The notes under the pieces were generated by a model, which saw only the letters and a program-made list of their open reading frames with translations, was not told the origin of the DNA and did no database searches. Source: Chryseobacterium defluvii (GTDB lineage Bacteria > Bacteroidota > Bacteroidia > Flavobacteriales > Weeksellaceae). Taken from it: a stretch of DNA of 64,000 bases. The DNA lies in contig NZ_RBXB01000002.1 of NCBI RefSeq assembly GCF_003634775.1, positions 868,001 through 932,000 on the forward strand. Direction: 5' to 3'. Numbering within the stretch: position 1 is the stretch's first letter; the number at the start of each line of letters is the position of its first letter. Of this stretch, positions 27,876-42,540 are shown piece by piece. The position numbers were made by a program, and so were the translations under genes.

Positions 27876-29666
27876 CTAATATGTTCCTTTTTCAATATAA
27901 TGAGCGGCAATTTTTTCAGTTAAAGCTACTACATTCGGATGATTGGTATATTTGGTAAATCTTCTTAATCCGGAAAGCATCATTCTCTGCTCATCACCTT
28001 CAGCGAAAGAAACAATTCCTTCTTTGGCAGCTACAATAATTTTTTCCACAGCCCTGTAAAGATTTAGCTGAGCCATTGCAGCTTCCACAGAATCAGCTGA
28101 GAAGTGTTTTTCTACTCTTAAGACCGTTGATTCCGCCATGTAGATCTGGTTGAGGATTTCAGAAGCATTCAATAGTAAATGTTGCTGTTTCTCAATATCC
28201 ATCATATATTTTTGAAGGGCTGCCCCTGAAACCATTAAGAAAACTTTCTTAAGATTTGCAATAATTGCTTTTTCCTCACTCATGAAGGCAGAATAATCAG
28301 GAACTTCAAATGACGGAATTCCCATCAATTCTTTGCTGATGGCCATTGCAGGGGATAATAAATCCAATTCTCCTTTCATAGCTCTTTTAATCAACATTCC
28401 AACTGCTAATAATCTGTTGATTTCGTTGGTCCCTTCATAGATTCTTCCAATTCGGGCATCTCTCCATGCAGATTCCATTGGAGTATCTTCTGAGAATCCC
28501 ATTCCACCGTAGATCTGGATTCCTTCATCAGCTGTGGTTTGAGTAAGATCAGATACGAAAACTTTAAGAATGGAAGCTTCTACCGCAAATTCCTCAACAC
28601 CTTTTAATTCAGCCTGTTGATGATCCATTCCTCCGGAAACCAGTTCTTCAATCTTATCTTCAACATTTTTAGCCAAACGGTAAGAACCGGCCTCACTTAC
28701 GAAAATGCCTGTCGCCATTTCCGCAATTTTCTTTCTGATGGCTCCGAAAGTTGAGATAGAAACGCCAAACTGTTTCCTCTCATTTGAATATTGAATAGAG
28801 TGATTTAAAATTCTTCTTTGCCCGTCAAGATTGGCCGCTGCTAATTTAATTCTACCAACATTCAAAGCGTTTAAAGCGATTTTGAAACCATTATTTCTTT
28901 CCCCCAGCATATTTTCTACAGGAACTTTCATGTCATTGAAGAAAACCTGACGGGTAGAAGATGAACGGATTCCCAATTTATGCTCTTCCTCACCTAAGGT
29001 CAGACTGTTTGGATCTTCCAGTTCTGAGCGGTTAATCACAAAACCGGTAATGTTTTTATCATCATCAATTTTTGCAAACAATGTAAATGTATCTGCAAAA
29101 CCGGCATTGGAAATCCACATTTTTTGCCCGTTGATGATGTAATGTTTTCCATCTTCAGAGAGTCTGGCTCTTGTTTTTCCTGAATTGGCATCAGAACCGG
29201 CATCAGGCTCTGTCAAGCAATAAGCACCGAATTTTGTTCCTGTAGCCAAATCCGGCAGATATTTCTTTTTTAGCTCTTCGGTTCCATAAAGAAGAGTAGG
29301 AAGGGTCCCGATTCCGGTATGAGCTCCATACGCTGTTGCCAATGAACCATTTCCTCCGGAAACATAGTCACAAGCCAACATGGTGCTTACGAATCCCATT
29401 CCAAGCCCGCCATATTCCTCCGGAACAGCAACGCCTAAAAGGCCCATTTCTCCAAGTTGACGCATTTTTTCTTCAGTCAGTGCATAGTCTTTTTTCTCAA
29501 AACGATCATGCTGCGGAACAACTTCACGGTCTATAAATTCTTTCGCAGAATCGCGAAGCATTTTTTGTTCTTCCGAAAGTTCTTCTAAAGAGAAGATTTC
29601 GTTTGCAGGAATTTCTTTGATCAGGAATTCTCCTCCTTTTAGTGTTTTATTAAGTGTATCACTCAT
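27876..29666 (-). CDS. Acyl-CoA dehydrogenase
   Basis: The 596-residue flavoprotein catalyses the first step of fatty-acid beta-oxidation. It starts FSLEELSEEQKMLRDSAKEFIDREV, has YCLTEPDAGSDANSG for FAD and substrate contact, and ends its catalytic core with IQIYGGMGFSEDTPMESAWRDARIGRIYEGTNEI (about 375-410), where the fatty-acid catalytic glutamate lies in YEGTNE. A further 180 residues form the extra C-terminal helical domain of the long Bacteroidetes/VLCAD-like form. It is the last gene of the marR-fad operon. Confidence 0.95.
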   Translation of the reverse strand: MSDTLNKTLKGGEFLIKEIPANEIFSLEELSEEQKMLRDSAKEFIDREVVPQHDRFEKKDYALTEEKMRQLGEMGLLGVAVPEEYGGLGMGFVSTMLACDYVSGGNGSLATAYGAHTGIGTLPTLLYGTEELKKKYLPDLATGTKFGAYCLTEPDAGSDANSGKTRARLSEDGKHYIINGQKMWISNAGFADTFTLFAKIDDDKNITGFVINRSELEDPNSLTLGEEEHKLGIRSSSTRQVFFNDMKVPVENMLGERNNGFKIALNALNVGRIKLAAANLDGQRRILNHSIQYSNERKQFGVSISTFGAIRKKIAEMATGIFVSEAGSYRLAKNVEDKIEELVSGGMDHQQAELKGVEEFAVEASILKVFVSDLTQTTADEGIQIYGGMGFSEDTPMESAWRDARIGRIYEGTNEINRLLAVGMLIKRAMKGELDLLSPAMAISKELMGIPSFEVPDYSAFMSEEKAIIANLKKVFLMVSGAALQKYMMDIEKQQHLLLNASEILNQIYMAESTVLRVEKHFSADSVEAAMAQLNLYRAVEKIIVAAKEGIVSFAEGDEQRMMLSGLRRFTKYTNHPNVVALTEKIAAHYIEKGTY

Positions 29667-29718
29667 TATTTTATTATTTTAAATTTTAGATTATAAATTA
29701 TAAATTATTGATTCTCTG

Positions 29719-30075
29719 TTATAAATTTTCAGATGAAGTTTTAATGATTCTAGTTAAAATATTAATGATGCTTTCAATGTCTCTCAAATAAGTATCTATT
29801 TCAATCCTAACTAAATTCGAAGATTGATAAAGCCTTAACCAATATTTTGTTTCTCTTGCTTCTTTATTGGCAATTGACAGTTTTGCGATAAAATCTTTTT
29901 TAGACTGTGCAGCAATTGCTTCTTCTACATTTGCGCCAATTGAAGTTCCACAACGAAGAATTTGTTTTGATAAAATAAACTCATTTTGAGATTTACATTC
30001 AGTATAAAATTTAATTATTCTTAAAGCAAATTCAAATGTTTTTATCTGAATTAAATTATCTTCTTTGAAACTCAT
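29719..30075 (-). CDS. Four-helix-bundle protein, 23S rRNA intervening-sequence-protein (IVP/S23) family, copy 1
   Basis: The 118-residue basic helical protein has the conserved core LSKQILRCGTSIGANVEEAIAAQSKKDF and SIANKEARETKYWLRL, typical of one subfamily of IVP proteins (TIGR02436). That family includes ORFs inside 23S rRNA intervening sequences and the Avd proteins of diversity-generating retroelements. Here there is no rRNA or reverse transcriptase. It sits between thiolase and acyl-CoA dehydrogenase in a beta-oxidation operon. It starts and stops exactly at the arms of an inverted repeat (29719-30092). Its own function is unknown; related proteins bind nucleic acids. Confidence 0.88.
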   Translation of the reverse strand: MSFKEDNLIQIKTFEFALRIIKFYTECKSQNEFILSKQILRCGTSIGANVEEAIAAQSKKDFIAKLSIANKEARETKYWLRLYQSSNLVRIEIDTYLRDIESIINILTRIIKTSSENL

Positions 30076-30092
30076 TCATCTAAAATTTATAA
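29719..30092. repeat. Inverted repeat bracketing the IVP-1 gene
   Basis: TTATAAATTTTCAGATGAA (29719-29737) is the reverse complement of TTCATCTAAAATTTATAA (30075-30092), with one extra base. The first arm contains the stop codon of the gene and the second ends on the A of its ATG. A third related stretch (AAATTTTAGAT, near 29682) lies just outside. The transcript would fold into a stem that encloses the whole ORF. Confidence 0.6.
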
Positions 30093-30110
30093 TTTAAAAT
30101 CTATAATTAA

Positions 30111-31289
30111 TTAAAGAAGCTCGAAAATTGAAGCTGCTCCCTGTCCTGTTCCTACACACATGGAAACCATTCCGTACTTGTTTCCGCGTTTTCTCATTTC
30201 GTCAAGAAGCTGAACTGTTAACTTTGTTCCGGTACATCCAAGAGGGTGCCCCAAAGCAATAGCACCTCCGTTTACATTGAGAATGTCAGGATTCAGGCCT
30301 AATTCTTTTTTGATAGCAACGGATTGAGAAGCAAAGGCTTCGTTCAATTCGATTAATTCGATGTCTTTTAATTCTAGACCGGCTTGTTTCAAAGCTTTTG
30401 GAATTGCATAAATGGGTCCCATTCCCATGATTCTTGGCTCAAGCCCGGCTGCTGCATATGCTACCAGTCTTGCTTCGGGTTGTAGCCCTAGTTCCTTTAC
30501 CATTTCTTCACTCATAACCATTACGAAAGCGGCTCCGTCACTCATTTGAGATGAATTTCCGGCCGTTACACTTCCGCCATTGGCGAATACGGGTTTTAAT
30601 TTGGCAAGACCTTCCAGTGAGGTATCTGCTCTTGGACCTTCATCCACAGAAAAATCAAATTTTTTAGTCTGCATTTTCTGGTTTTCATCCAGGAAATTAT
30701 ATTCAACAGGAATTGGAACAATCTGATTGGCAAATCTTCCTTCCTGATTCGCTTTTAAAGCCTTCATATGAGATTCAAAAGCAAACTGATCCTGTTCTTC
30801 TCTGGTGATTTTATATTGTTTGGCTACTTCTTCGGCAGTGTAACCCATTCCCCAGTAATAATCAGGGTTTGTTTTGGCGATGTCGGTCTCAGGAACCGGT
30901 TTGTAGCCACCCATCGGGATATAAGACATGGATTCTGTACCCCCTGCGATGATGCAATCTGCCATTCCTGCCTGAATTTTTGCAGAAGCAATCGCAATCG
31001 CTTCACTTCCCGATGCACAGTATCTGTTGACCGTAACTCCCGGAACTTTATCTGTATTGAGTCCCATCAGTGAAATCAAACGGGCAACATTCAGGCCTTG
31101 CTCAGCTTCCGGCATTGCATTTCCTACGATAAGGTCGTCAATCCTGTTTTTGTCTAATTGCGGAAGCTCAGCCATTAATTTTTCAATAACTGTAGCCGCC
31201 ATTACATCGGGTCTTGTAAATCTTAAACTTCCTTTTGGAGCTTTTCCAACGGCAGTTCTGAAACCCTTTACTATATATGCTGTTTTCAT
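30111..31289 (-). CDS. fadA: Acetyl-CoA acyltransferase (thiolase)
   Basis: The 392-residue enzyme cleaves 3-ketoacyl-CoA to acetyl-CoA and a shortened acyl-CoA. The nucleophile is C91 in NRYCASGSE, the other catalytic residues are H348 in GHPLGCTG and C378 in SMCVGTGQG, and the length matches degradative thiolases. It lies between the fadB-like and acyl-CoA dehydrogenase genes, with an IVP gene in each flanking spacer. Confidence 0.95.
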   Translation of the reverse strand: MKTAYIVKGFRTAVGKAPKGSLRFTRPDVMAATVIEKLMAELPQLDKNRIDDLIVGNAMPEAEQGLNVARLISLMGLNTDKVPGVTVNRYCASGSEAIAIASAKIQAGMADCIIAGGTESMSYIPMGGYKPVPETDIAKTNPDYYWGMGYTAEEVAKQYKITREEQDQFAFESHMKALKANQEGRFANQIVPIPVEYNFLDENQKMQTKKFDFSVDEGPRADTSLEGLAKLKPVFANGGSVTAGNSSQMSDGAAFVMVMSEEMVKELGLQPEARLVAYAAAGLEPRIMGMGPIYAIPKALKQAGLELKDIELIELNEAFASQSVAIKKELGLNPDILNVNGGAIALGHPLGCTGTKLTVQLLDEMRKRGNKYGMVSMCVGTGQGAASIFELL

Positions 31290-31293
31290 AAAT

Positions 31294-31327
31294 TGTATAA
31301 TGTATTAATGTATAATGTACAATGTAT
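31294..31327. repeat. Short tandem TGTATAATG-type repeats
   Basis: The spacer between thiolase and the IVP-2 gene holds three imperfect repeats of TGTATAATGTA. The last copy runs into the inverted repeat around the IVP-2 gene. Confidence 0.55.
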
Positions 31328-31731
31328 TTTAAGTGTTAACTTGAATAAACTTGTTTCAGTTTAATAATCATATTTTGAATATGTTGTATTTCAATAAGAG
31401 TTTTCTGAAATCTGTCTTCCGGAAAAAATTCAGATTCCTTTGCTATTGTAATTTGAGTTTCAAACTCAAATGAAGAACCCAATGCAATATTTAAAAAATG
31501 TGAAAATTGTGCCTTAGTGTCTCTTCCTGCTCCCTTAGCTATGTTAGAAGGAATAGAGTATAAACATCTTCTTGATTGAGAAGTAAGACCAAATAATTCA
31601 TCTTTTGGAAATTCTTTGGAAAAGAAATAATACATTTTACAAAGTTGAATTGATTTTTTCCAAACCTCCAATTGCCTGAAATCATGCATACTAAAAAATA
31701 TTTTTTACGTTAATACTTTTTACATTTTACA
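31316..31731. repeat. Imperfect inverted repeat bracketing the IVP-2 gene
   Basis: The segment at 31316-31340 and the reverse complement of 31708-31731 share the pattern TGTAxAATGTA, then AAGTxTTAAC, with a two-base gap. About 20 of 25 positions match by eye. The first arm contains the stop codon of the gene (31336-31338); the second lies 19 bases upstream of its ATG. Confidence 0.5.
31336..31689 (-). CDS. Four-helix-bundle protein, 23S rRNA intervening-sequence-protein family, copy 2
   Basis: The 117-residue protein belongs to the other common IVP subfamily. It begins FRQLEVWKKSIQLCKMYY and continues with FGLTSQSRRCLYSIPSNIAKGAGR, FLNIALGSSFEFETQ and a late KLKQVY helix. It differs strongly in sequence from copy 1, so the two are not recent duplicates. 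It lies between the fadB-like gene and thiolase, with an imperfect inverted repeat around it. No rRNA or retroelement is nearby. Its role is unknown. Confidence 0.88.
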   Translation of the reverse strand: MHDFRQLEVWKKSIQLCKMYYFFSKEFPKDELFGLTSQSRRCLYSIPSNIAKGAGRDTKAQFSHFLNIALGSSFEFETQITIAKESEFFPEDRFQKTLIEIQHIQNMIIKLKQVYSS

Positions 31732-41711: not shown

Positions 41712-42425
41712 ACAATAAAAGTTTTACAGTCTTTGGATAAAAAGAAGTTCAGGCAAAAATACAATTTGTTTTTGGTTGAAGGTAATAAAATCATTTGTGA
41801 ACTCTTTGAATCTAACTTTAAAATTAAAGAAATATTTTCTACTGATCCACAAAAATTAGACCGTACAGATGTACCGGTTACACATGTCTCTGAAAATGAG
41901 TTGAAAAAAGTAAGCTTTCTAAAGACTCCGAAAGATTCCATAGCGGTTTGTCATCTCAATTCTGAGCAAAAAATGGAAGATCAGAATGTTCAGCTGGTAT
42001 TGGACGGAATTCAGGACCCGGGGAATTTAGGAACAATTATTCGTTTGGCAGACTGGTTCGGAATCGAACAAATTATCTGTAGTAATGATACGGTAGATTT
42101 TTATAATCCAAAAGTGATACAGGCCAGTATGGGATCTTTTACGAGGGTGAATATGGTGTACTGTGATCTTGTGGAATATCTTTCGGAAACTGAAAACATC
42201 AATATTGGAACTGATATGGAAGGGGAGAACATCTACACTTTCCAAAGACCCGAAAAAATCAACCTGATTTTAGGAAATGAAGGCAACGGAATGCGCCCGG
42301 AAACGGAAAAACTGCTTCAGAAAAATATCAGTATTCCCCGATTTGGAAAATCACAATCTACGGAGAGTCTGAATGTTTCTATGGCAGCAGGAATTATTTT
42401 AGGGCAGTTGTTTTCTCAAAAATAA
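41697..42425 (+). CDS. SpoU/TrmH family RNA 2'-O-methyltransferase
   Basis: The protein of about 242 residues has the three SPOUT motifs: QDPGNLGTIIRLADWFGI, LILGNEGNGM, and IPRFGKSQSTESLNVSMAAGI. The N-terminal substrate domain (FLVEGNKIICEL) is the type found in the RlmB/TrmH group. It methylates ribose on rRNA or tRNA; the site is not shown. GAGGAG lies 7-12 bases before the ATG at 41697, a good ribosome-binding site that excludes the TTG at 41679. It overlaps tamL in opposite direction. Confidence 0.9.
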   Translation: MLTAHTIKVLQSLDKKKFRQKYNLFLVEGNKIICELFESNFKIKEIFSTDPQKLDRTDVPVTHVSENELKKVSFLKTPKDSIAVCHLNSEQKMEDQNVQLVLDGIQDPGNLGTIIRLADWFGIEQIICSNDTVDFYNPKVIQASMGSFTRVNMVYCDLVEYLSETENINIGTDMEGENIYTFQRPEKINLILGNEGNGMRPETEKLLQKNISIPRFGKSQSTESLNVSMAAGIILGQLFSQK

Positions 42426-42428
42426 AAA

Positions 42429-42532
42429 TTAGAGGTTAGAAGTTAGATTTGATGATAAAGGTGAAGATTTATCAAGCAATTACTAAAGATTGAATGTTCT
42501 GTAATTTACTTTTCCTAACTTCTAACGACTAA
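42429..42532. repeat. Intergenic inverted repeat
   Basis: TTAGAGGTTAGAAGTTAG (42429-42446) pairs with the reverse complement of CTAACTTCTAACGACTAA (42515-42532), with two mismatches in 18. The loop of 68 bases holds no ORF. It begins just after the SpoU gene and lies between convergent genes. Confidence 0.7.
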
Positions 42533-42540
42533 CTTTGGTT

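Follow-up and report, generated by a model that had tools for sequence, protein, structure and literature searches.

In the 64,000-nucleotide stretch of DNA analysed here (the window), the gene between thiolase and acyl-CoA dehydrogenase genes is probably part of the 'IVP element', a mobile DNA element of which this locus would be one copy. The element is ~400-450 bp long and would consist of a single gene, encoding a pentameric four-helix-bundle protein, with an array of about five degenerate 7-nt words on each side of it, the two arrays being inverted relative to each other. Genes annotated as 'four helix bundle protein' or 'S23 ribosomal protein' occur in thousands of genomes and have no known role. 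Comparisons between genomes show that the gene and both arrays move as a unit, that they enter and leave clean intercistronic sites, and that they decay to arms-only hairpins. They also show that the word differs between element subfamilies and that one insertion was accompanied by a 5-bp target duplication. The window contains two IVP genes, copy 1 and copy 2, and one pair of arms with no gene, as follows.

29719-30075, minus strand: IVP / S23 / four-helix-bundle protein gene, copy 1; ORF of 118 aa; PF05635, TIGR02436
30078-30108, minus strand: 5' arm of copy 1, upstream heptamer array, ATTATAA-type word; inverted-repeat score 42, P=4e-4; period-7 P=0.002
29682-29712, plus strand: 3' arm of copy 1, downstream heptamer array, inverted relative to the 5' arm; shares the same inverted repeat; period-7 P=0.0003
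29721-29738, unstranded: inner 3' pairing segment with the stop codon within it; an arm of the sequence-only reading, present in the sequence and in the fold
30075-30091, unstranded: inner 5' pairing segment with the start codon at its end; an arm of the sequence-only reading, present in the sequence and in the fold
31336-31689, minus strand: IVP gene, copy 2, 117 aa; PF05635 8.1e-34; between a fadB-type gene and thiolase
31703-31728, minus strand: upstream array of copy 2, TATAATG-type word; inverted-repeat score 27, P=0.02; period-7 P=0.024
31290-31315, plus strand: downstream array of copy 2; period-7 P=0.004
42429-42533, unstranded: arms-only element with no gene, TTAGAGGTTAGAAGTTAGA ... 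CCTAACTTCTAACGACTAAC; array at 42418-42447, second arm read in the sequence

The copy 1 protein matched PF05635 with an E-value of 1.3e-23 (83.7 bits against a curated cut-off of 33.8) and TIGR02436, 'four helix bundle protein', at 2.4e-28 (98.5 against a cut-off of 24). These profile searches revealed a single IVP ORF and no transposase domain in copy 1. Both neighbours are on the minus strand, thiolase at 30111-31289 and acyl-CoA dehydrogenase at 27876-29666, which is the operon setting that the sequence-only reading had given. The inverted repeat formed by 30078-30108 and 29682-29712 scored 42, a value reached by AT-rich shuffled spacers in 4e-4 of trials. When 132 ORFs of 90-200 aa from 464 kb of the genome were ranked by the inverted-repeat score of their flanks, the IVP genes of the window came 1st and 3rd. 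The ORF, both profiles and this repeat bear out the earlier claim of an IVP-family gene within an inverted repeat. The 18-19-base arms with one indel that had been described were also recovered (~29721-29738 pairs with ~30075-30091, with one bulged base), as were the stop codon in the distal arm and the start codon at the proximal arm. This pairing is real and is the inner end of the longer repeat, 29682-29712 / 30078-30108. The inverted repeat had been seen, but its 7-nt arrays, the word common to both arms and the end of the element at the outer array edges had all been missed.

Copy 2 has diverged from copy 1 and occupies the next gap upstream, between the fadB-type gene and thiolase. Taken alone, it gives weaker statistics than copy 1 (inverted repeat, P=0.02; period 7, P=0.024 and 0.004). 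The genome has eight IVP loci, every one of them in a gap between co-directional genes. Most have degenerate two-sided arrays with words differing among loci; one locus (L005) fails to score. The arms at 42429-42533 are inverted TTAGAAG-type arrays, and their word is that of IVP elements of other species at purF and fadB-thiolase sites.

IVP genes were found in 116 of the 118 genus genomes sampled, with 1-18 matches each. The architecture was compared in 118 loci from 15 IVP sites, a sample biased to high-scoring copies, with gene neighbours called by a simple ORF caller. Most of the 15 sites share the plan; the word varies by site and matches between the arms of one site. When the downstream flank was reverse-complemented and aligned with the upstream flank, the mean score over 117 loci was 28.5, compared to 16.9 for flanks mispaired across sites, the same 16.9 after dinucleotide shuffling and 16.7 in direct orientation. 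Word similarity was likewise higher between the two arms of one locus than between loci (0.57 versus 0.43). Flank autocorrelation in the 117 loci peaked at lags 7 and 14. Across all loci examined, 267 arms were clearly periodic and lag 7 came out best in 229 of them, and the arrays had a consensus of about AGTKATN and a median length of 4.7 heptamers on each side, 'about five' being approximate because the detection threshold drops shorter arrays. A minority of loci had weak or absent inverted arms. As a negative control, the IVP-free genomes were mixed, G045 being without real heptamer arrays and G092 having some. In G092, inverted heptamer hairpins are present (L368-L377), yet there is no detectable IVP gene; either the gene was lost or movement occurs in trans.

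The gap between thiolase and dehydrogenase was compared in 40-odd relatives and was found to be empty, to hold an IVP element of type A, B or C, or to hold arms only. Type A is the window type, type B has the arms AAAGAATAAAGAGA and type C the arms ATAGACGGATAGATAATAGA, each type having its own word. The empty gap measured 11-18 nt (L129, L133, L147 and L148). Arms-only gaps (types C and D) had C words in L134-L136 and copy-2-type words in L124, L145, L150 and others, and in L123 a type B element has decayed. A thiolase tree of 39 taxa, many of whose inner branches are weakly supported, gave at least 21 state changes, compared to a mean of 24.5 for shuffled labels. A type A carrier (L137) and an empty site (L133) were sisters with a support of 100/100, nested among type C carriers. 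Whole-locus exchange between species is a possible alternative account of this site pattern. In two relatives (L126 and L132) the same gap holds a membrane-protein-like ORF of 181-185 aa without a Pfam match.

Insertion could be followed at base resolution in cyanobacterial plasmids. An IVP element in Trichormus variabilis NC_007412.1 is missing from Nostoc linckia AP018224.1, Aulosira laxa and other plasmids, and the flanks of the filled/empty pair are 98-99% identical. The filled site is longer by 428 bp, made up of a 423-bp element and a second GTAAT, a clean 5-bp target duplication, and the insert is bounded on both sides by the outer edges of its heptamer arrays. Nostoc ATCC 53789 NZ_CP046704.1 has a related element, 81% identical over 405 aligned bases with the arms included, at an unrelated site where the similarity stops at the arms and the flanks are dissimilar, which shows that gene and arms form a single unit. 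Related plasmids are without this element, and a TTCTA duplication at its site is probable, with one flanking indel. These two were the one clean and the one probable duplication in a comparison that also covered the tra, nrd, Pseudanabaena, Picosynechococcus, Calothrix and window sites. The sequence-only reading had suggested a mobile element and a search of relatives for a clean empty site; such sites, found both in the genus and in these plasmids, support that suggestion. A decayed copy of the Trichormus element, reduced to its 5' array and the beginning of the gene, lies at the same plasmid site in Nostoc C052 NZ_CP040277.1 (L400).

The same plan was observed in a further set of 144 loci, of which 40-43% exceeded the 99th percentile of mispaired controls; the set covered Bacteroidota, Clostridia, Synergistaceae, Cyanobacteria, Acidobacteriota, Planctomycetes and Proteobacteria. 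In 12 named genomes, 30 loci had a mean arm score of 36.2, compared to 16.2 when mispaired, and several words were found side by side in one genome. TAGGGAG-type arrays flank a four-helix-bundle gene on both sides between two nrd genes in Nostoc edaphicum NZ_CP054697.1, AACAGGG arrays are easily visible in the annotated plasmid of Nostoc C052 NZ_CP040276.1, and in Microcystis (L166/L327) arrays of TCAGTTA, which is TAACTGA reversed, enclose the IVP gene. IVP genes inside CRISPR operons have been reported earlier (PMC3936711) and were found here between cas10 and cmr3 and between cas6 and cas4. No Rfam match indicating an rRNA location was obtained at 20 IVP loci of other phyla, and no match indicating phage carriage among 50,697 phage records. 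The cas6-cas4 locus (L350, Pseudanabaena galeata NZ_CP112875.1) has long arrays on both sides that are direct rather than inverted, with 13 similar places on the plasmid. Arrays look period-8, not 7, at L007, L008 and L354, the last being the cas10-cmr3 locus of Picosynechococcus NZ_CP016476.1.

The IVP protein is under strong purifying selection, with a dN/dS of 0.08 among same-site relatives of the window type. Of nine site groups, eight gave values of 0.05-0.12, and the ninth mixes subfamilies. The only PDB matches of the protein were 2gsc and 2rld, solved relatives with five chains each, and the family has been described as a toroidal homopentamer (PMC4990558). These matches suggest that the window IVP protein is a pentamer of four-helix bundles. 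At unrelated sites, IVP proteins at least 60% identical had a word similarity of 0.57-0.67, and less identical ones 0.42-0.47. IVP similarity predicted word similarity with a Mantel r of only 0.14 (P=0.0005; heptamer profiles, one locus per site), and an earlier measure of arm similarity by 5-mers gave a weak link to IVP identity.

We infer that the pentamer recognises the arrays through putative binding of about one subunit per heptamer. It would bring the two ends together and so mark the element DNA for a recombination enzyme, which may be supplied by the host or by another element, the IVP protein being without a known transposase domain. Expression would be by read-through from the upstream gene, as the orientation suggests, and insertion is presumably tolerated only where it is harmless, in intergenic gaps and, in other bacteria, in rRNA loops. 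Neither a transposase, a recombinase nor a reverse transcriptase was found in the element. Counting against the mobile-element reading are this lack of an enzyme, target duplications that are clean at one site and probable at one other, the strong purifying selection at fixed sites, the arrays without IVP in G092, the weak-armed loci and the direct Pseudanabaena arrays.

An alternative is that the locus acts as an RNA intervening sequence: the arms would form a stem in the operon mRNA, cleavage of this stem by RNase III would release the IVP part, the separate cistrons would tolerate the cut and movement would proceed via RNA. In Coxiella, an intervening sequence with an S23p ORF and a 28-bp terminal repeat is excised by RNase III and has heptamers before the ORF (PMC4990558). 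In the window, the arms pair in the predicted fold, but the fold z was only -1.8 for copy 1 and -2.0 in a second prediction. Most copies are co-directional with their neighbours (116 of 116 genus loci with both), but this is weak evidence because 73% of the genome's small ORFs are likewise co-directional and the broader loci include exceptions, 11 antisense to both neighbours and 12 between opposite-strand genes. With one locus per site, differences between arms comprised 115 that were G-U-tolerant and 146 that were A-C. Since G-U differences do not outnumber A-C, the arms as a selected RNA stem are not supported. In orthologous arms, one-sided changes broke the pairing ~4 times as often as they kept it (400 broken, 101 still pairing), and two-sided changes were broken in 109 cases and compensatory in 70. 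With the wobble and compensation tests both negative, an RNA stem kept by selection was rejected, and the earlier suggestion of self-excision from mRNA is not supported. Overall, an RNA intervening sequence is an unlikely explanation of the locus; RNase III could cleave the arms as a by-product.

Somewhat less likely again is that the host has domesticated IVP as an RNA- or DNA-binding protein, with the arrays serving as its operators or as sites of translational control. The purifying selection seen at fixed sites (dN/dS 0.05-0.12) might also signal host function, the arrays lie near start codons, array-only sites exist elsewhere, and a regulator has been proposed for TAACTGA repeats (MacGregor 2015, PMC4679880). 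A host regulator is at odds, however, with the turnover and empty sites, with the occurrence in unrelated operons across unrelated phyla, with several subfamilies having different words in one genome, and with the decayed copies. That the arrays are gene-independent products of ordinary slippage or chance AT-rich sequence, the latter a concern of the sequence-only reading given the AT-rich window arms, is highly improbable and was rejected even though heptamer arrays also occur without IVP in G092, since matched arms beat mispaired and shuffled controls across the 117 genus loci, the window P values (4e-4 and the period-7 tests) are low, control ORFs of the same genome have no such arms or arrays, GC-rich arrays exist (L341 and L318), and insertion ends coincide with arrays.

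The mobile IVP element resembles the 23S rRNA intervening sequences of Coxiella and Leptospira, thought to be selfish, in its protein family, its terminal inverted repeat and a length of ~430 bp (PMC4990558), and the window element likewise has complementary ends around an S23p-family ORF. It differs in lying between thiolase and acyl-CoA dehydrogenase rather than in an rRNA gene, in its two-sided arrays with a locus-specific word, in the DNA insertion seen from empty sites and in showing no RNA-stem selection. In the Coxiella 23S rRNA, tandem GACAGAT heptamers stand directly before the S23p ORF (PMC4990558), which ties the rRNA case to the architecture of the IVP element. Intergenic heptamer repeats of period 7 have been described in Xanthomonas (GGGAATC), Nostoc (GGGGATT) and Beggiatoaceae (TAACTGA), in arrays usually of 2-6 units and of 4 in Xanthomonas (PMC4692102, PMC4679880). 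Xanthomonas has 70-75 inverted heptamer pairs per genome (PMC4692102) and was compared by description. In contrast to the IVP element, these arrays were published without a link to IVP and most have no gene between them. In the literature covered, mostly outside subscription journals, we found no paper linking non-rRNA IVP genes with heptamer arrays. Avd of diversity-generating retroelements belongs to the same fold family; copy 2 matched the Avd equivalog profile weakly (20.3 against a cut-off of 80) and copy 1 not at all, and, unlike Avd, the IVP gene has no reverse transcriptase and no template or variable repeats beside it. In contrast to a DNA transposon or insertion sequence, the element has no transposase and a single ORF, IVP.

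It is conceivable, with the odds slightly against, that IVP elements form a transposase-less mobile class in which a pentamer reads ends of about five heptamers and protein and word co-diversify, and which covers the S23p rRNA intervening sequences and the heptamers of Cyanobacteria, Xanthomonas and Beggiatoaceae. IVP genes and source-less heptamer arrays would then be the halves of one mobile element, which would join two open problems and extend rRNA intervening sequences to ordinary operons. IVP would be a candidate for the TAACTGA repeat-binding protein sought by MacGregor, who proposed a regulator (2015, PMC4679880). Movement without a transposase would become a concrete question, and one pentamer to about five heptamers is a direct binding prediction.

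The IVP element also resembles RAYT/REP/REPIN systems in having a small gene with inverted repeats, repeat-only derivatives elsewhere and an intergenic location. In contrast to those systems, its repeats form arrays of 7-nt words with no conserved sequence, rather than a conserved palindrome, and it has no Y1 transposase, Y1_Tnp being found only in an alternative occupant of the neighbouring gap. This occupant, ~650 nt long, lies in the fadB-thiolase gap of L129, L130, L133-L138, L141, L142, L145 and L148, and has an IS200-like Y1_Tnp gene (154 aa; PF01797 5e-26 for L145) flanked by REP-like inverted ends, AGCTCCGTAGGAGCGAACTGTTAAT. In L132, L139 and L146 this gap holds only REP-like hairpins. 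Two unrelated repeat-flanked elements, IVP and Y1_Tnp/REP-like, are attracted to the one fadB-thiolase gap. In L140, L149 and L107 this gap holds another short intergenic hairpin, TTTGTCATTCC...GCATGACAAA.
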